Below are positions 3,930 to 36,303 of a stretch of 36,303 nucleotides of DNA, piece by piece. Source of the DNA: a virus; IMG/VR virus record IMGVR_UViG_3300027730_000074, positions 1 through 36,303 of that record, one strand, 5' to 3'. Both the position numbers and the translations under genes were made by a program. The stretch's first letter is position 1. Every line of letters begins with the position of its first letter. Under the pieces are notes generated by a model. It had not been told where the DNA came from and made no database searches. It saw nothing but the letters and a program-made list of their open reading frames with translations.

Positions 3930-4996
3930 AGTTTTACGTCTTTTTCATCTACTTTAATTAGGTTGCTTATTCTTTTGCTATATGTTTGTAGGTTATTAAG
4001 AGTTACGAACAAATTCTTTCTATCGGCTGATATATTTTTCACATAATATGTTTTAGGGTCATTTTTAAATTGGACTTTGGAGTTTTTACCTATTCTATAT
4101 TTTGCTATTATTTGTTCTTCTTTACTAGATATATTTTCGTTTACATTTTCAACTACTGACATAAGGTTATCATATGATTTGGCTTTATAGCTATCTAAGA
4201 TATCCATGAATGGTGTTCTTCTAAGTACTTTAAACACTAGGTTTTCGTAACTATATTCACCACCGCTTTCCAAGCCAGCTTTTCTCATATTTTTTATTTT
4301 GTTTTTAAGTTTTGTAACTTTATCAACAACGGTTTGATATTTTTTATCTTGATAATCTTGACGAATATCTTTAAGGTAGTGAATATATTTTTCGGCACCG
4401 TCTTTGATTGCTTTTTTATCCACATCAAATTTTTCACGTTTTGGTTTTTTAACCCATTTATCACGTAGAACTGAATAAACGGCATTGGCAAGCAGTTCAT
4501 GATTTACGTCTTGAACGTAGAGTTCAACTGGGTAATCAAAGACTGTTATATCGTGTTCTTGGTTCCATATTGATTTCTGTGCATAGAAAAAATCATATAC
4601 TAATTTTTGGTCGGCATCAAATTGTTTAAAATCTAGAACTATATGAAGGTCAATATCTGAGAACTTTGACCAATTATAGTTTGCTAAGCTACCAGTAAAA
4701 ATAATATCTTTGATTTTTATACCTTTTGGAAGTTCTATATCTCTCATAAAGTTTTTGGCGATATCAACTAGATTTGTTCTAACTTTTGGGTTAAGTTTAT
4801 CATCTTGCCAAATATCTTTATTAAGAGAATCTTTAATTTTAAAGCTATTTAGAACGTCTTTTGGTATTTTTATTTCTTTTGAGATGTTATCATCTATGGT
4901 TGAAGCCAAAGCATCTATCTCATCCAATTGTTGTATTGGGTGGATAATTTGTTGATTTTCAACTAATAATGATTTATTTGCTCTAAAAAATTTCAT
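3926..4996 (-). CDS. Pol-beta-superfamily nucleotidyltransferase
   Basis: The product is 356 aa. The nucleotidyltransferase signature is clear: GS at 102-103 followed by SDIDLHIVLD with Asp114 and Asp116 as metal ligands. A third acidic strand probably lies in ITVFDYPVELYVQD. The N-terminus MKFFRANKSLLVEN contains an LxE tripeptide, so this enzyme may be packaged and delivered. The last 60 residues look like a small beta-barrel (VQFKNDPKTYYVKNISADR). The substrate (RNA, protein or small molecule) is not evident. An ATATTTATA motif on this strand lies 18 nt upstream, and the gene is divergent from the glycosyltransferase. Confidence 0.85.
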   Translation of the reverse strand: MKFFRANKSLLVENQQIIHPIQQLDEIDALASTIDDNISKEIKIPKDVLNSFKIKDSLNKDIWQDDKLNPKVRTNLVDIAKNFMRDIELPKGIKIKDIIFTGSLANYNWSKFSDIDLHIVLDFKQFDADQKLVYDFFYAQKSIWNQEHDITVFDYPVELYVQDVNHELLANAVYSVLRDKWVKKPKREKFDVDKKAIKDGAEKYIHYLKDIRQDYQDKKYQTVVDKVTKLKNKIKNMRKAGLESGGEYSYENLVFKVLRRTPFMDILDSYKAKSYDNLMSVVENVNENISSKEEQIIAKYRIGKNSKVQFKNDPKTYYVKNISADRKNLFVTLNNLQTYSKRISNLIKVDEKDVKL

Positions 4997-5014
4997 TTGT
5001 GTGTAAGTTTTCTC

Positions 5015-19624: not shown

Positions 19625-21829
19625 TTATTTAGATTTAGATTTACTACCCTTTATTATTATGGCTTCTTTTTCTTTAATAAAATCTATACTAATTGTTTCA
19701 CCTTCTTTTATGTTTCCATTTAAAATTTCATCAGCAACAGCATCTTCCACATAATGTTGAATGGCTCTGGCTAATGGTCTAGCACCATAAGCTTCATCAT
19801 ATCCTTGTTTAGCCAAGTATTCAACCGCTTCTTTGCTTATTTTTAATTTGAAGTTCATTTCATTCAAACGTTTTTCTAAGCTTTCAACTTCAAGATATAT
19901 GATTTTATGTATATCTTCTTCTGTTAGTCCTCTGAATATTATAGCCTCATCAATACGATTTAAGAATTCTGGTCTGAACTTCTTTTTTAAAGCCTTTTCA
20001 ATTATCTCACGTGCTTTGTTTTCTTCATTAACAATAGTCGCAGCCGTTTCAAACCCTAAGCTCTTTCCAAAAGAATTAACTTCTTTAACACCAATATTTG
20101 ATGTCATGATAATAAGAGCGTTTTTAAAGTTTACTTTACGACCTAAACCATCAGTTAGTTGACCTTCATCTAATAATTGAAGTAACAGGTTGAAAACGTC
20201 TTCATGTGCTTTTTCTATTTCATCAAATAAGATTACGCAGTGTGGTTTTCTTCTTACTTTTTCAGTTAGTTGACCACCTTGTTCGTAGCCAACGTAACCT
20301 GGAGGCGCACCAACCATTCTGGATACTGAGTGTTTTTCCATATATTCAGACATATCCATTCTTACAAGCGCATCAACATCACCATAAACATGTTCAGCCA
20401 ATAATTTAGCTAATAAAGTTTTACCTACCCCGCTTGAACCAAGGAACATGAAAGAACCAACTGGTTTATTTTTATTTTTGATACCGATACGATTACGCTT
20501 TATAGCTTTTACGACTTTAGTAACGGCAGCATCTTGTCCTATAACTTTACCAGTAAGTTCTTTATCCAAGTTCATTAGTCTTTTGCTTTCCTGTGTTGAT
20601 ATTTTTGTCAAAGGTATACCAGTCATCATTGAAACCACTTCAGAGATTAGTTCTACACCAACCACAGTTGTTTTTTTCTCTAGAGTTGCATTCCAATCAT
20701 CCATAGCCGATTGAAGTTGCTCTAGAATTTTTCTTTCTTCATCTCTAAGTTTGGCAGCTTCTTCGTACTTTTGTTTTAAAACCACCTCTTTTTTCTTTTC
20801 TAAGATTTGGCTTTTCTTGATTTCTAATTCTTTAATTTTTTCTGGTTTTTCCAACACAACATTTGTTGTTGCACCAGCTTCATCCAAAACATCAATTGCT
20901 TTATCTGGCATCGACCTATCCATGATATATCTAGCTGATAATTTAACACATTCGTCAATTGCTTCTTCAGTATAAGTTACTTTATGGTGTTTTTCATACT
21001 TTTCTTTGATATTCATTAGAATTGTTTTGGTTTCTTCTAATGTTGGCTCTTCTACCAATACTTGTTGAAAACGTCTTGTAAGTGCTCCATCTTTTTCAAT
21101 ATTCTCACGATATTCATCCAATGTTGTGGCACCAATGATTTGTATTTCTCCACGAGCCAAGGCTGGTTTAAATATATTTGAAGCATCTAATGAGCCAGAA
21201 GCGTTTCCAGCTCCAACAATCGTATGTAGTTCATCAATAAAAAGAACTATGTCTGGGTTTGCTTTGCACTCTTCCAAAACAGCTTTCATTCTTTCCTCAA
21301 ATTGGCCACGATATTTTGTACCAGCAACAATTGATGCTAAATCTAACGTGAATATTCTTTTGTTTATTAGTGTTCTAGGTGCGTCACCATCTTTAATAAG
21401 TTGGGCCAGACCTTCAACAATTGATGTGTTGTGTGATAAAATTCCATTTGTGAAATAACGTCTGTTGGAATTTTCATTTAATTGAAAATCATACATAATT
21501 TCTTTATAACCCAAATTGTTTACTTCTAAAACCTCAGATTCTACTAAATTGCCATTATTATCAGATACCATAACGAACGAACCTATTTTTAGGTCTTTAA
21601 CAAATATTTCAGTTAAACCAACTGCTTCAAAAGTAGTTTCATCATATTCAGTAACAAATACAATATGATTATCAGCACATTTAAGTTCTTTTCCATCAGC
21701 TAATTTTAAATGGTATACTTCATAAAGAATTGTTTCATGTAATTTATCAATTTTTTTAAAACCAGTATCAGTAAGAATACTAAAATTATTAATATTCCAC
21801 GTTTTTGTAAATTTTTTTAATGTTTCCAT
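19625..21829 (-). CDS. clpC: C-terminal part of ClpC-like AAA+ unfoldase, preceded by C-intein
   Basis: The product is 734 aa. Residues 1-134 are a C-intein; residues 135-734 are ClpC from inside D1 onward. D1 begins TSIVEGLAQ, the second half of a Walker A, with Walker B VLFIDE (about 195-200) and arginine-finger region TRRF. A short M-domain-like stretch is seen (QKYEEAAKLRDEERKILEQL). D2 has Walker A GSSGVGKT (464-471), Walker B VILFDE (532-537) and RPEFLNRID. The LGF tripeptide at about 591-593 sits where ClpC carries its ClpP-docking loop. It forms hexamers that unfold proteins for ClpP. Without splicing D1 lacks its P-loop. Confidence 0.92.
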   Translation of the reverse strand: METLKKFTKTWNINNFSILTDTGFKKIDKLHETILYEVYHLKLADGKELKCADNHIVFVTEYDETTFEAVGLTEIFVKDLKIGSFVMVSDNNGNLVESEVLEVNNLGYKEIMYDFQLNENSNRRYFTNGILSHNTSIVEGLAQLIKDGDAPRTLINKRIFTLDLASIVAGTKYRGQFEERMKAVLEECKANPDIVLFIDELHTIVGAGNASGSLDASNIFKPALARGEIQIIGATTLDEYRENIEKDGALTRRFQQVLVEEPTLEETKTILMNIKEKYEKHHKVTYTEEAIDECVKLSARYIMDRSMPDKAIDVLDEAGATTNVVLEKPEKIKELEIKKSQILEKKKEVVLKQKYEEAAKLRDEERKILEQLQSAMDDWNATLEKKTTVVGVELISEVVSMMTGIPLTKISTQESKRLMNLDKELTGKVIGQDAAVTKVVKAIKRNRIGIKNKNKPVGSFMFLGSSGVGKTLLAKLLAEHVYGDVDALVRMDMSEYMEKHSVSRMVGAPPGYVGYEQGGQLTEKVRRKPHCVILFDEIEKAHEDVFNLLLQLLDEGQLTDGLGRKVNFKNALIIMTSNIGVKEVNSFGKSLGFETAATIVNEENKAREIIEKALKKKFRPEFLNRIDEAIIFRGLTEEDIHKIIYLEVESLEKRLNEMNFKLKISKEAVEYLAKQGYDEAYGARPLARAIQHYVEDAVADEILNGNIKEGETISIDFIKEKEAIIIKGSKSKSK
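21428..21829 (-). other. C-intein of a naturally split intein
   Basis: 134 residues (METLKKF... to ...TNGILSHN). Block B is ELKCADNH, with the conserved His but Ala in place of the usual Thr. Block F is IMYDFQLNENSNRRY, followed by block G NGILSHN ending in the catalytic His-Asn. The next residue is Thr, the +1 nucleophile. No homing endonuclease domain is present. Confidence 0.9.
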
Positions 21830-21849
21830 TGTTATTATTGTTATTATTG
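21830..21849 (-). repeat. AACAATAAT repeat spacer at the intein break
   Basis: The 20-nt gap between the two intein halves is made of AACAATAAT-type repeats that also run into the upstream stop codon. In the upstream frame it contains several TAA stops. The downstream ATG is in the -1 frame relative to the upstream gene. Confidence 0.8.
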
Positions 21850-22644
21850 TTATTTGTTATTTAAAAATTCATTTAAACTAATTTTAATAACTTCACCAGT
21901 TATATCGTTTCTAATAACTATATTAGTATCAGAACAAATACACTTACCCACTCCAGGTTCACCAATCAAAACAGGGTTGTTTTTTTTCCTTCTGGATAAT
22001 ATTTGTGAAACTCTTTTAATTTGAACAGAACGGCCAGTTACTGGGTCTATTTCGCCTTTTTCAACAGCTTTAGATACATCTCTACAGAAGTTATCTAAAA
22101 CTGGTGTTTTACTTTTGTTGTCACTTTGCTTTGATTTCTTTTTAAATGATTCACTTTCATCATTAATATTTTCGTTTTCGTATACACTGTTGGTTTCATC
22201 TTTCATATTTTTTATAACATTTTTAAAATTATCGTATGTAACATCATAAAATTCGTTTAACATTTCACTTATATTGTTCTTTTTAGCTAAAATGGCCAAC
22301 ATGATGTGTATTGTATCAATCATATTGTCATTTAATTTTTCACATTCTTCGTCCAAAGACTTTATTAAAGCTTTTGTTTCATCTGAAAACGGAACAGTTT
22401 TTTTATGGTAAACAACAACTCTTGGGGTTATATCACTTCTTTTGAGATGGTCTGACAATCTATCATATAGTTCTGAAGTATTGACTTTTAACGCTTTAAG
22501 TACCTTAACACATTCATTATCATTATCCATCAAGATAGAAAGAACCAAATACTCTGGCCTAACTTTTGAATCATTAAACGATTTCGCCTCTTTAATAGAC
22601 TCGTTAATTATAATTTTAACTTTTGGGTATACTTCTCTGTTCAT
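21850..22644 (-). CDS. clpC: N-terminal part of ClpC-like AAA+ unfoldase, followed by N-intein
   Basis: The product is 264 aa. Residues 1-70 or so form a Clp N-terminal domain ([13 protein letters not shown], repeated in weaker form near [14 protein letters not shown]). After an acidic linker comes the start of D1: [40 protein letters not shown] and [12 protein letters not shown] (ending at 234). Residues 235-264 are the N-intein. The joined extein would be 234 + 600 = 834 aa, close to bacterial ClpC at about 810. A strong host-type promoter drives the pair, which are separated by 20 nt. Confidence 0.9.
21853..21942 (-). other. N-intein of a naturally split intein
   Basis: 30 residues: [16 protein letters not shown] then [14 protein letters not shown]. 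Cys1 is the splicing nucleophile and block A is clear. The very short N-piece is the atypical split position seen in some viral inteins such as the AceL terminase intein. Block B and later blocks are in the downstream gene. Confidence 0.9.
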
Positions 22645-27096: not shown

Positions 27097-28233
27097 ATGT
27101 TAAACAACTTTAAAATATTAAAAGTTAAAAATATAACTGAAACAAGTTTTACCATTGATGCTATTGTAGAAGGCGAAAGAGTATCAGTTGAATTTAAAAG
27201 AAGTGATTTGATTGAAGAACCGTTGGCATATGATGAACCATGGGTATATTCTTTTGAGTCAATTAATTCACCAGATGGTAATGTTTATTCAATTAATGCA
27301 ACTTATTTTGGTAACCCAAGAACTAATTTAGAATTTGATGAAGTTGATACTGATAGTTTAGAACAAATAAATAAAATTAATGAAAACATATTTCCTATGA
27401 AAAAAGCTATAATTAGCCCAGTTGGTCTTAAAGGTAATGAAATCAACGAAAGAATGAAACAATTGATGGGAATTCAATCAATTAATGAAAACAAATCTAA
27501 CATTGTTGTTGAATTAACCAAGATAGGACCTGATGGTAATGCTTATGCTATCATAAGAGAAAACCATGAATGGTACATTAAAAAAGCTAGTAAAACCAAA
27601 AATTTGGTAGCAGAAGACTTTAAGTATATTGGTGGTTTGCAAAACAAAAAACAAGAAGCTTATCCATCATATGCAAAAGCTATAAAACATTTGAATCTTA
27701 AATTCAGAAGTCTAGCTGAAGCATACAACTATGATGGTGAAATTAATGTATTTTTGAATGATAATTTATTGTCAGAAATGGCTATGGCTGCTGGGTTTTC
27801 TGAAATGAAAGGTAATGGATTTACTGGTGAAGGAAACTTAGAAGGTAACAAACCAATGGATGAAATGTATATGGAGGAAGTTGAAATGACCGAGGCTGAA
27901 ATGGCCATTGATGAAATGATTGCTAAAGAAGAACTTAAAGGCAGTCAGAAAAAACTTGACGTAGCTGAACCAAAAGGTGAACTAACAGCTGCTGATTTTA
28001 AAAAATTAAGAGCTGGTAAAAAAGGTATGGAAGAAGGTGAAGAAATGACGGCAAAAGAAAAGAAATTTGCTGCTTTGGCTGAACCTAAAAACAAAATTAC
28101 TTACGCTGATAAAATAGCTGGTGCTAAAAAAGGTGATGTGAAAGAATCTAAGCTTTCAATTCTTAGTGCTTTAAAAGATTTTGATTCAATAATTGACAGT
28201 ATTGCTGAAGGTGAAGTAAAAAAAAAAGTCTAA
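27097..28233 (+). CDS. Head-module structural protein, first frame of a -1 frameshift gene
   Basis: The product is 378 aa as read. The N-terminal part (1-100) is beta-rich. Residues about 235-350 are charged, low-complexity and helical (AEMAIDEMIAKEELKG, KKLRAGKKG, EPKNKITYADKIAGAKKG), as in phage scaffold/core-like proteins. It ends SIAEGEVKKKV at a stop right after an A10 run. In the -1 frame the protein continues without a break as VKKKSLKINLDEETKYKL into the next frame. The joined product would be 926 aa. It is probably a head-associated structural protein; I cannot give a T4 equivalent. Confidence 0.8.
   Translation: MLNNFKILKVKNITETSFTIDAIVEGERVSVEFKRSDLIEEPLAYDEPWVYSFESINSPDGNVYSINATYFGNPRTNLEFDEVDTDSLEQINKINENIFPMKKAIISPVGLKGNEINERMKQLMGIQSINENKSNIVVELTKIGPDGNAYAIIRENHEWYIKKASKTKNLVAEDFKYIGGLQNKKQEAYPSYAKAIKHLNLKFRSLAEAYNYDGEINVFLNDNLLSEMAMAAGFSEMKGNGFTGEGNLEGNKPMDEMYMEEVEMTEAEMAIDEMIAKEELKGSQKKLDVAEPKGELTAADFKKLRAGKKGMEEGEEMTAKEKKFAALAEPKNKITYADKIAGAKKGDVKESKLSILSALKDFDSIIDSIAEGEVKKKV
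28218..28227 (+). other. A10 run, candidate -1 ribosomal or transcriptional slippage site
   Basis: Ten A (in-frame GTA AAA AAA AAA GTC TAA) precede the stop of the first frame. The -1 frame has TGA at 28212-28214 just before the run and is then open to 29876. The switch must happen on the A-run, an A AAA AAA type slip like that of dnaX. A homopolymer undercall is the main alternative. Confidence 0.7.
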
Positions 28234-28319
28234 AAATTAATTTAGACGAAGAAACAAAATATAAGTTAAAAATAGCAGCTCCTAGCGAGCCAGCTGTTGA
28301 GACTCCAATTGAAGAACCT

Positions 28320-29876
28320 ATGGCTGAGCCAACTGCTGAAGAACCAGCAGCGCCAGTTGATGACATAGCGCCTGCTGACGCATCATTAGAAGCCCCAGCA
28401 ACAGATGATAAACCATTTGATGACGAGCCATTTGATGCTGGTGTTGAGGCCGATGAAGAAACGGACCCAAAGAAATTTATCCAACAACTAACTGGTAAGT
28501 TAGGACAATCCCTTAGAAAATATAACGAAGAGCAAGGTCAACCAGATTTCGAATTAGAGAAATTTGCGATTAATTCATTATTGTCAGCCACTCACACAGG
28601 TGAAATGGACGCTGAAGACCAAAAAGATATCATAAGCAAAGTTAAAAAATCAGGTGTTGGTGACGAAGAAGCACCAGCAGACACTGAGGCTCCGTCAGAG
28701 GAAGCACCAGCTGAAGAACCATCTAGTGATTTAGATTTTGGCGGTGAAGAAGAAATCGAAGAGAACATGTTTATTGACAATCCTAAAAAATTAAGCATAT
28801 TTGCACCAGAAGGTAGTAAAGAGGCCGAATATCAAAATACACACAATCCTATACAAAAAGAGTCAAATAACTACATGTTTTGGCAAAATCTTAAAACCAT
28901 TCATCACGCTGCTGGTGAATTATTAAAAATGAATTACGATGAAGTTGACGCTTTATTGTCAGATGGTCATGGATGGGCTTTGGACCATATAGCCACATCT
29001 GCTGATGATGTTGAAGAAGTTTATCATTTCATCGAAGGTAGATTAAATGATTACCATGTAGATTCTGATGACCAATATGAAATGGAAGATGAATGGTCAG
29101 CTCCAATGGAATTGCATAAAGAAATGATGGTTTCTGATGATTTAAAATACCATATTGAAAATGAAATTCCTTTGAACGAAACAATATATAGAGTCGGTTC
29201 AGAAAAATATTTTAATTTGATTAAAGAAGTTAAGTCTTTATATTCAAAAGGGCTTATTAAACTTAATGAAAATGATGCATTTATTGTTAATGAATTTGAT
29301 AATCAATATATCATGCTTGAAGGTAAAAAGGTTAAGATGAACTTTATCTATGAAGAAGCTGAAACAGAAGAAATAAATGAAGCTGAAAATGTAAAAGTTG
29401 GTGACAAATTATATCATAAAAACTCTGATTCTACTTTAGAAGTAATTGATGTTACACCAAAAACAATCAGTATGAAAGTTACAAAAACATCTGATAAAAC
29501 ACCTTCATATGTTAAAGTAGGTGATACATCAAAAACTGGTCCAGCTGCTATAGGTAAAACTTACGAACTTATTAATGAAGCTGAGTATAAGGGTAAAAAA
29601 GTTCAATTAGGTAAACCTAAAAGAGGCGGTTCAAAGAAATTCTATGTTTATGTAAGAGACCCTCAATCTGGTAACATTAAAAAAGTATCATTTGGTGCTA
29701 AGTCTGGTGGTGGTAACTTGGCTGTTAAGTTAAGAGACCCTAAAGCTAGAAAAGCATTTTCAGATAGACATAACTGTCCTTCAAAGACAGACAGAACTAG
29801 CCCAGGGTATTGGGCTTGCCGTTTGCCAAGATACGCTAAATCATTAGGTTTAGCAGGTGGTGGTACATGGTGGTAA
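28320..29876 (+). CDS. Head-module structural protein, second (-1) frame
   Basis: The product is 518 aa from the first ATG, but the frame is open from 28215 and probably is read as a continuation of the previous gene. The start is acidic and Pro/Ala-rich, a likely linker (EEPAAPVDDIAPADASLE). Next is a helical domain around DPKKFIQQLTGKLGQSLRKY. A central Asp/Glu-rich part follows. The C-terminus has a basic domain with conserved look: KPKRGGSKKFYVYVRDPQSG, RHNCPSKTDRTSPGYWACRL and PRYAKSLGLAGGG. This ending occurs on structural proteins of large environmental phages. There is no start-like signal before 28320. Confidence 0.8.
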   Translation: MAEPTAEEPAAPVDDIAPADASLEAPATDDKPFDDEPFDAGVEADEETDPKKFIQQLTGKLGQSLRKYNEEQGQPDFELEKFAINSLLSATHTGEMDAEDQKDIISKVKKSGVGDEEAPADTEAPSEEAPAEEPSSDLDFGGEEEIEENMFIDNPKKLSIFAPEGSKEAEYQNTHNPIQKESNNYMFWQNLKTIHHAAGELLKMNYDEVDALLSDGHGWALDHIATSADDVEEVYHFIEGRLNDYHVDSDDQYEMEDEWSAPMELHKEMMVSDDLKYHIENEIPLNETIYRVGSEKYFNLIKEVKSLYSKGLIKLNENDAFIVNEFDNQYIMLEGKKVKMNFIYEEAETEEINEAENVKVGDKLYHKNSDSTLEVIDVTPKTISMKVTKTSDKTPSYVKVGDTSKTGPAAIGKTYELINEAEYKGKKVQLGKPKRGGSKKFYVYVRDPQSGNIKKVSFGAKSGGGNLAVKLRDPKARKAFSDRHNCPSKTDRTSPGYWACRLPRYAKSLGLAGGGTWW

Positions 29877-34663: not shown

Positions 34664-36303
34664 ATGCTAAGTAGAGAAGAAATCTTTAAGGAATATGCAA
34701 AGTGTTTAACTAGTCCAATATACGCTATTGAGACTTATTTGGAGACATTTGATAAAACCCAAGAAGGTTTTGTACCATTTAAGTTATTTCCCAGACAAAA
34801 AGAAATCATACACGCATATCAAAAGCATAGATTTAATTTAGTTACAAAACCAAGACAGGCTGGTGTATCTACCACAACAGCTGCTCATATGTCAATTAAA
34901 GTTAGTTTTGCTGACTCTGAAAATCCAGAAGCGGTTCTAATCATTGCGAACAAACAAGAATTGGCGTTTGAATTTTTGGCTAAAATTAAAGATTTTGTTT
35001 CACAATTACCAAGATGGGTTTGGGGAGCTGAATACTATGGTAATCAAAAAAATGAAGAAAAGTCAATATTCCTTACTGACTCTAAAAAAGAAATAAAACT
35101 ACCTAATGGTAGCCGTGTAAAAGCGGTGGCAACATCTAAAGATGCTTTGCGTGGTTTTACACCAACTTATTTAATTATGGATGAAGCAGCATATATTGAT
35201 AATGGTGCTGAGGTATTTGGTGCTGCTCTCACAGCACTTGGTACTGGTGGTCATTGTATATTAATTAGTACACCAAGAGGTATGGATGCTTTATATTACA
35301 AAACATACGACCAAGCTAGAAAAAAGGAAAACAATTTCAATATCATTGAAATGAAATGGTATGAAGACTTGCGCTATAATAAAGATTTACGTTGGACTAA
35401 AGATGAGGTAACAGAACACGAGGTTGAATTTACCTTCGATTCTTACCAAAAAAGAATTTCAGAAGGTTGGAAACCAACATCTTCATGGTATGAAGAAATG
35501 TGTCGTGGTATGAACAATGACGCTAAGATGATTGCTCAAGAATTGGATGTTTCTTTTATTGGTTCTGGTGGAAACGTTATTGATGAACAGTATATCGAAT
35601 ATCAAAATAATTTTAACGTAAAGGAACCGTTGTATACAGCTGGGCCAGATGGTGACATTTGGATTTGGGCGGAACCTCAAGAAGGACATCAGTACATTTT
35701 AGCTTCCGATGTATCTAGAGGTGATGGTGAAGACTCATCTACAATGGTTATATTAGATTTTACAACAATGGAACAAGTGGTTGAATATCAAGGCAAAATT
35801 CAACCAGATTTATTAGCACAAATAATTGAGGAATACGGAGATTTATATAAGGCTTATACAGTTGTTGATGCAACTGGTGGTATGGGTGTTTCTACTATTC
35901 TTAAATTATTAGAGTTTGGTTATAAAAGATTACATTATGATAATCAAAATGGAAAAATTTTGTCAAGTAGGCAAAGAGAGTTAAATAGTTTTAACAAAGA
36001 TAATAAAATACCAGGATTTCATGCAACATCAGTTCGTTTACCAATGGTATCTAATTTGGAATTTAAAATTAGAACAGACGCTGTTAAAATTCGTTCAGTT
36101 AGAATGACGTCTGAAATGAAAACGTTTATTTATAAAAACGGTAGACCAGACCATATGGATGGTTATCATGATGATTTGCTAATGGCTATGGCTATGTGTT
36201 TATGGGTTATTGAACATTCTTTTAAAAATCTAGAAAGATTAGAAAAACAAAATAAAGCGATGTTGAGTAGTTGGGTTGTTGGTTCACCAGCAACAAAGGA
36301 AGA
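34664..36303 (+). CDS. Terminase large subunit (TerL), partial
   Basis: 546 codons are visible and the frame is open at the window's edge, so the 3' end is missing. The ATPase domain has Walker A-like TKPRQAGVST (about 61-70), Walker B YLIMDEAAY (about 169-177) and a coupling motif in ISTPRG. The nuclease domain has LASDVSRGDGEDSS, then VVDATGGMG, and GYHDDLLMAMAM, matching the three-acid RNase H-type site of T4 gp17. It packages DNA into the prohead by ATP hydrolysis and cuts concatemers. No intein interrupts it, although terminases of this kind often carry one. Confidence 0.95.
   Translation, partial: MLSREEIFKEYAKCLTSPIYAIETYLETFDKTQEGFVPFKLFPRQKEIIHAYQKHRFNLVTKPRQAGVSTTTAAHMSIKVSFADSENPEAVLIIANKQELAFEFLAKIKDFVSQLPRWVWGAEYYGNQKNEEKSIFLTDSKKEIKLPNGSRVKAVATSKDALRGFTPTYLIMDEAAYIDNGAEVFGAALTALGTGGHCILISTPRGMDALYYKTYDQARKKENNFNIIEMKWYEDLRYNKDLRWTKDEVTEHEVEFTFDSYQKRISEGWKPTSSWYEEMCRGMNNDAKMIAQELDVSFIGSGGNVIDEQYIEYQNNFNVKEPLYTAGPDGDIWIWAEPQEGHQYILASDVSRGDGEDSSTMVILDFTTMEQVVEYQGKIQPDLLAQIIEEYGDLYKAYTVVDATGGMGVSTILKLLEFGYKRLHYDNQNGKILSSRQRELNSFNKDNKIPGFHATSVRLPMVSNLEFKIRTDAVKIRSVRMTSEMKTFIYKNGRPDHMDGYHDDLLMAMAMCLWVIEHSFKNLERLEKQNKAMLSSWVVGSPATKE

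Follow-up and report, generated by a model that had tools for sequence, protein, structure and literature searches.

A metagenomic virus genome carries a structural-module gene that appears in two pieces, joined at a run of ten adenines by a shift to the -1 frame. The question raised by this locus is whether the junction is a site of programmed recoding, by the RNA polymerase or by the ribosome, or one gene from which a single base is missing. The window, i.e. the whole stretch of DNA that was analysed, is a complete IMG/VR virus record of 36,303 bases; features are on its plus strand unless stated otherwise.

Reading frames at the junction

The first frame, ORF A (27097–28233, 378 aa), corresponds to the predicted short product. 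Its codons at the junction read ...GGT GAA GTA AAA AAA AAA GTC TAA, giving ...GEVKKKV-stop, with the run at 28218–28227 and the TAA stop one codon past it at 28231–28233. The -1 frame is shut by a TGA (28212–28214) just upstream of the run and is then open up to the TAA at 29874–29876. Its first ATG is at 28320, with neither GTG nor TTG upstream of that position. In this frame ORF B (28227–29876) supplies the second half of the predicted long product, 549 aa after the junction. The letters, read directly, bear out the sequence-only reading on both frames: the first ends VKKKV-stop at a run of exactly ten adenines, and the second, closed before the run, stays open at length with no start before 28320. 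The 926-residue fusion that it predicted (...EGEVKKK-SLKINLDEE...) is arithmetically correct (377+549 residues), but the start is less sure, as in homologues the protein starts at the position that corresponds to 27397. The same ten adenines recur in another IMG/VR contig of this virus, a 97-kb sequence that was assembled separately and has one mismatch over 9,554 nt.

Conservation of the run among relatives

Viral contigs were searched with ORF B from its ATG and then with profiles built on the conserved cores of the two halves. No query contained the junction, so that ascertainment was independent of the A-run. Both cores were present at 173 loci, 96 of them distinct, and the distinct relatives formed 74 clusters at 90 % core identity. 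The second core was in the -1 frame relative to the first in 95 of the 96 distinct loci, and a short open-frame overlap with 9–12 adenines was found in 94 of these 95. By cluster, the run was A10 in 63, A9 in seven and A11, A12 and A7 in one each, with one further cluster fused at A11; thus 72 of the 74 clusters were split with A9–A12. As in the window, the stop lay one codon past the run in 41 of the 73 split clusters. A further search with gut relatives detected a rumen/gut clade with the same arrangement, and the relatives as a whole came from lakes, seas, rumen and gut.

The tree of relatives has deep branches, and parsimony on its 88 sequences requires 16 or more changes of run state. The run is therefore able to change, yet it stays at nine or more adenines. 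Run length was identical in all 20 pairs of near-identical but non-identical sequences. The kinship of the sequences makes formal P values too small.

Selection acts on the nucleotides rather than on the lysines that they encode. Outside the site, 471 kb of the same loci contained 25 A-runs of nine or more, corresponding to about 0.002 expected per 40-nt overlap. Lysine codons in these genes are 78 % AAA and 22 % AAG, but none of 21 Lys-Lys-Lys triplets elsewhere in the two ORFs was all-AAA (9.8 expected), while the junction triplet was all-AAA in 72 of 74 clusters. In A10 loci with the common codon phase, the residue before the lysines varied (Leu, Val, Gly, Ser, Ile, Pro or Arg) with its codon always ending in A, and AAG was found at none of the three junction lysine codons. 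The invariant A before the lysines, the lack of AAG and the avoidance of all-AAA triplets elsewhere together indicate that the nucleotide run is selected, in line with a need for a homopolymer. At the sequence level, conservation extends to the gene arrangement, the run and the open frames, and the run is conserved at the junction although such runs are avoided elsewhere in these ORFs.

In 94 of 96 distinct loci, and again in the rumen/gut clade, A9–A12 occurs with the two halves in this -1 relation, which strongly supports the programmed -1 shift that had been proposed for the window. Of the two outcomes foreseen for related phages, a conserved A10 or a contiguous A11, it was the conserved A10 that was found. 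Judged from these comparisons, the junction is a conserved programmed -1 recoding site and not a sequencing slip.

A small number of loci were exceptional. Two relatives are contiguous single genes with a run one A longer than usual, namely L244 (A11) and L263 (A10, in a clade that mostly has A9). L245 has only A7, in the context TCA AAA AAA GCC TAA. L252 and L253, which are nearly the same virus from two metagenomes, lack an A-run; there the first frame closes with TTA AAT TTC TGA and the -1 frame runs on into the second core, so that A_AAT_TTC, a canonical ribosomal site, lies directly 5′ of the TGA (locus position about 4996–5012). The first frame also ends without an A-run in L264 and L266. 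The shifts in L245 and in L252/L253 look ribosomal, and in the L252/L253 lineage a ribosomal site has apparently taken the place of the A-tract at this junction. These fused, A7 and A_AAT_TTC exceptions indicate that the fusion is what is conserved, and that at least one lineage seems to reach it via the ribosome.

Polymerase slippage and the alternatives

At the A9–A12 sites, programmed -1 recoding by RNA-polymerase slippage is considered likelier than ribosomal frameshifting, with a probability of roughly 65 %. According to this model, faithful A10 transcripts would be translated in the first frame up to the stop at VKKKV, yielding the short protein. In some transcripts one A would be added as the host RNA polymerase slips on the A-tract, and the resulting A11 transcript would join the first frame to the long -1 frame, producing a fusion of ~826–926 residues (...VKKK-SLKINLDEE...). 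The N-terminal domain would be common to both products and only the long product would carry the KYKLK-linker, the helical core and the variable C-terminal domains. We infer that both products are made in some ratio, that the polymerase rather than the ribosome does most of the work at A9–A12 and that the protein has a role in virion assembly.

Slippage is favoured because the maintained run exceeds a heptamer by two to five bases, because the best Escherichia coli heptamer, A_AAA_AAG, is absent from A10 members and because the run, with 9–12 adenines, is found in all three codon phases, which would suit a phase-independent process. Tracts of nine A or T cause slippage by bacterial RNA polymerase (PMC1088944, PMC5009743), and dnaX with A10 in nine species has been ascribed to slippage (PMC3711429). 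No match to an RNA polymerase beta subunit was found in eight related contigs, and sigma-70 region 2 matches were found in the six related contigs tested, one of them below the curated cut-off. The host polymerase with a phage sigma factor is therefore the likely enzyme.

The main alternative, which we regard as less likely for the A9–A12 sites, is -1 ribosomal frameshifting on A_AAA_AAA within the run, with tRNA-Lys re-pairing one base back on a transcript that the polymerase has copied faithfully. This heptamer is present in every split A-run, including that of the window, and the shift is in the same direction as at the -1 ribosomal sites A_AAA_AAG, A_AAA_AAA and A_AAT_TTC. One lineage retains only A7, as A_AAA_AAA_G, and another has A_AAT_TTC directly before the TGA. 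In addition, although all three codon phases are seen, most runs finish at a codon boundary, and such a phase preference is not required by slippage. Against this, A_AAA_AAG was found in no A10 locus of the common phase, and 9–12 adenines are kept where seven would suffice. In vitro, sliding of E. coli ribosomes is robust on A11 and weak on A9 or A10 (PMC4363877). Internal Shine-Dalgarno sequences, which are not a universal requirement, were little enriched (10 of 74 versus 23 of 222 control stretches) and none was clear.

RNA structure, which exists downstream of the run and could favour a ribosomal shift, was evaluated by anchoring on the K-[YF]-x-L-K codons, where a stem-loop starts, using synonymous-codon shuffles and arm swapping. 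Folding energy downstream of the run, in the -1 frame, was below the expectation from synonymous codon choice, with a mean z of -2.96 versus synonymous shuffles for 52 clusters in which KYKLK ends 26–52 nt past the run, and of -4.66 for 18 clusters in which it ends about 95–177 nt past it. Windows further downstream of the stem-loop gave little or no folding signal. Watson–Crick stems of at least seven pairs were found in 22 of 73 clusters (3.75 expected). The 31 stems of at least six pairs had 30 different 5′ arms, and a locus's own arms paired better than arms swapped between loci in 200 of 200 shuffles. On this evidence the arms of the KYKLK stem-loop covary. No pairs were returned by RNAalifold on MAFFT alignments A6 and A7, because the arms cannot be aligned by sequence, and Rfam contained no family for the stem-loop. 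In the window the stem-loop spans the codons after KYKLK (28264–28304) and is weak (z -2.45, dinucleotide shuffles), while in many relatives it is strong. Covarying examples were also seen at L007, L105, L156 and L254; the rumen/gut clade has the stem-loop in part, with a 16-bp stem in L254.

An ordinary role as frameshift stimulator is improbable for this stem-loop, because its distance from the run varies from 26 to 177 nt, compared with ~5–9 nt for the usual stimulator, and because unshifted ribosomes mostly stop before reaching it. It may instead protect the mRNA past the early stop, pause shifted ribosomes between domains or bind a regulator. In the search, which covered stem-loops, no conserved stimulator was found ~5–9 nt past the run. 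The window does have a 7-bp hairpin directly 3′ of the run (GUCUAAA-AAUUAA-UUUAGAC, 28228–28247; z -6.5), and short perfect hairpins of different sequence are found at this position in L088, L092, L105 and L129. Other relatives are without one, so a hairpin adjoining the run is not general, which weakens the ribosomal alternative further. Two other functions for hairpins were considered and rejected: a general, classical frameshift stimulator, as the distance tracks the KYKLK codons and not the run, and a bypassed (hopped) segment, as the -1 frame is open through the hairpin in split clusters.

Polymerase slippage was also weighed against readings in which no recoding takes place. Phase variation, in which replication slippage would alter the length of the run so that part of the population is fused and part is not, is very unlikely. 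Two genetically fused relatives are one A away from the usual state, and the changes of run state counted by parsimony on the tree are in its favour, but nearly all genomes are in the same -1 state where a contingency locus should be mixed, and run length never differs within the near-identical pairs. Equally improbable is the production of two separate proteins, with ORF B started on its own or translationally coupled at the 0-frame stop. That stop does adjoin the start of the open -1 frame, and some members have an ATG 9–15 codons in. However, no start codon is conserved, the first ATG being 9–128 codons in, and the methionine of DGMSTGLF is isoleucine in L009 and L161; moreover, coupling requires neither A10 nor an open overlap, and fused members exist. 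A single A lost in assembly or sequencing, with a true gene of one open frame through 11 adenines, had been held to explain the window equally well, and homopolymers are indeed error-prone and two relatives are contiguous, but this reading is excluded by the conservation of A9–A12 in the -1 relation, has a negligible probability given that 95 of 96 distinct contigs, drawn from many metagenomes, share the -1 arrangement, and does not fit the identical run in the second contig of the window virus.

The gene product, its setting and its significance

The conserved core of the first half (profile A3) is encoded at 27397–27774 and that of the second half (profile A4) at 28389–28658. In AlphaFold2 models, which are partly disordered (pLDDT 71 and 68), the first half has a small folded core, after which the sequence is acidic and poorly ordered, and the second has a helical core with variable C-terminal domains. 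The C-terminal domain of the window protein (29574–29822) matches phrog_7595, which has no assigned function and occurs in other proteins of Flavobacterium, Methylophilales and Pelagibacter phages. There was no Pfam match, no PHROG match with a function and no relative in the PDB by sequence or fold, and the best structural matches were two uncharacterised metagenomic phage proteins of about the size of the first half. Neither core was found in a collection of cultured phages, where only the C-terminal domain and a middle motif were detected. Ahead of the first core, residues 1–100 of the window ORF (27097–27396) form an accessory domain. This domain of ~90 residues is N-terminal in the window, and in relatives (L108:2089–2340, L147:5566–5820) it lies close to where the second half ends or farther downstream, a distribution that suggests domain shuffling within the module. 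In L112 the second-half protein contains, past residue ~210, an insertion that resembles an intein or a homing endonuclease (CVPENTSKALTRDGWKDVNQLNLGDEIMTYN...).

Terminase, portal, head protease and gp23 all follow the gene on one strand in related contigs. Portal and gp23 were present in 10 of 10 related contigs and the protease in the one annotated; in the window, a T4-type terminase large subunit is encoded at its end (34664–36301). These head-module genes indicate a T4-like myovirus, for which Far-T4-like is a candidate label. The earlier description of the product as a head-module protein is supported in part, for the position of its gene upstream of and on the same strand as the T4-type head genes and not for the protein itself; the role in virion assembly is proposed from position.

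Two other features of the window were observed. A ClpA/B-type ATPase on the minus strand (19625–22644) is broken in its Walker A motif (GEPGVGK | TSIVEG) by an apparent split intein, with an N-part of 30 aa and a C-part of about 135 aa ending HN; the two halves are separate ORFs with a 20-nt gap, and the interruption resembles those of atypically split inteins. Many small ORFs (8378, 10743, 755, 3162 and others) share an N-terminal motif such as IxxxLTESxLxRIxxRL or LLRES, which may be a tag for head targeting and cleavage, by analogy with T4 internal proteins.

The conserved recoding events known from tailed phages are mostly ribosomal frameshifts in tail and capsid genes. One case in long-tailed phages, the ribosomally shifted tail assembly chaperone G/GT, similarly involves a phage structural-module gene with a short and a C-terminally extended product made by a -1 shift. 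Unlike G/GT, the gene described here is upstream of terminase and not beside the tape measure; no homology was found between them, and the protein had no Pfam or PHROG tail match. According to a review, T4 is without G/GT (PMC5009743). The over-long run, the unused A_AAA_AAG and the lack of an adjoining conserved stimulator or a clear internal Shine-Dalgarno set the locus apart from known -1 ribosomal sites, with which it shares the heptamer in all split members and A_AAT_TTC in one lineage. With the bacterial slippage systems (Thermus dnaX with A9, dnaX of other species with A10, Shigella spa13/mxiE and IS elements) it shares A9–A12 at a junction of overlapping frames, a run kept against the usual counter-selection, and, as predicted here, a short and a fused product; it differs in that the gene belongs to the structural module of uncultured T4-like phages and to a protein family with no named relatives, and in that slippage is here predicted from sequence. 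In Campylobacter phage CPt10, a poly-A frameshift in a methyltransferase gene, for which slippage was suggested (PMC2853527), was a single case described as a mutation, compared with dozens of lineages here. No report of this recoding site was found in the literature searched. The locus is a well-supported new example of something already known, -1 recoding programmed by an A-tract, and it has an additional RNA structure.

Several consequences follow for the annotation and study of these phages. Annotation pipelines will split this protein in two, and the closest viral models are about the size of the first half. The A_AAT_TTC lineage and the two relatives fused by one more A allow slippage, a ribosomal shift and plain fusion to be compared as natural routes to one product, and the overlapping KYKLK stem-loop is an unexplained conserved RNA element. 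A broader proposal, for which we consider the chances to be about even, is that in an uncultured T4-like clade ranging from aquatic habitats to rumen and gut, host polymerase slippage on a maintained A9–A12 run determines the balance between two forms of a virion-module protein, that one lineage has swapped to a ribosomal site, and that the covarying stem-loop over the second frame is a second layer, probably acting on something other than the shift. If true, this would put the mechanism to a new use: polymerase slippage at a conserved site within a core-module gene, in a T4-like clade that is uncultured and widespread.
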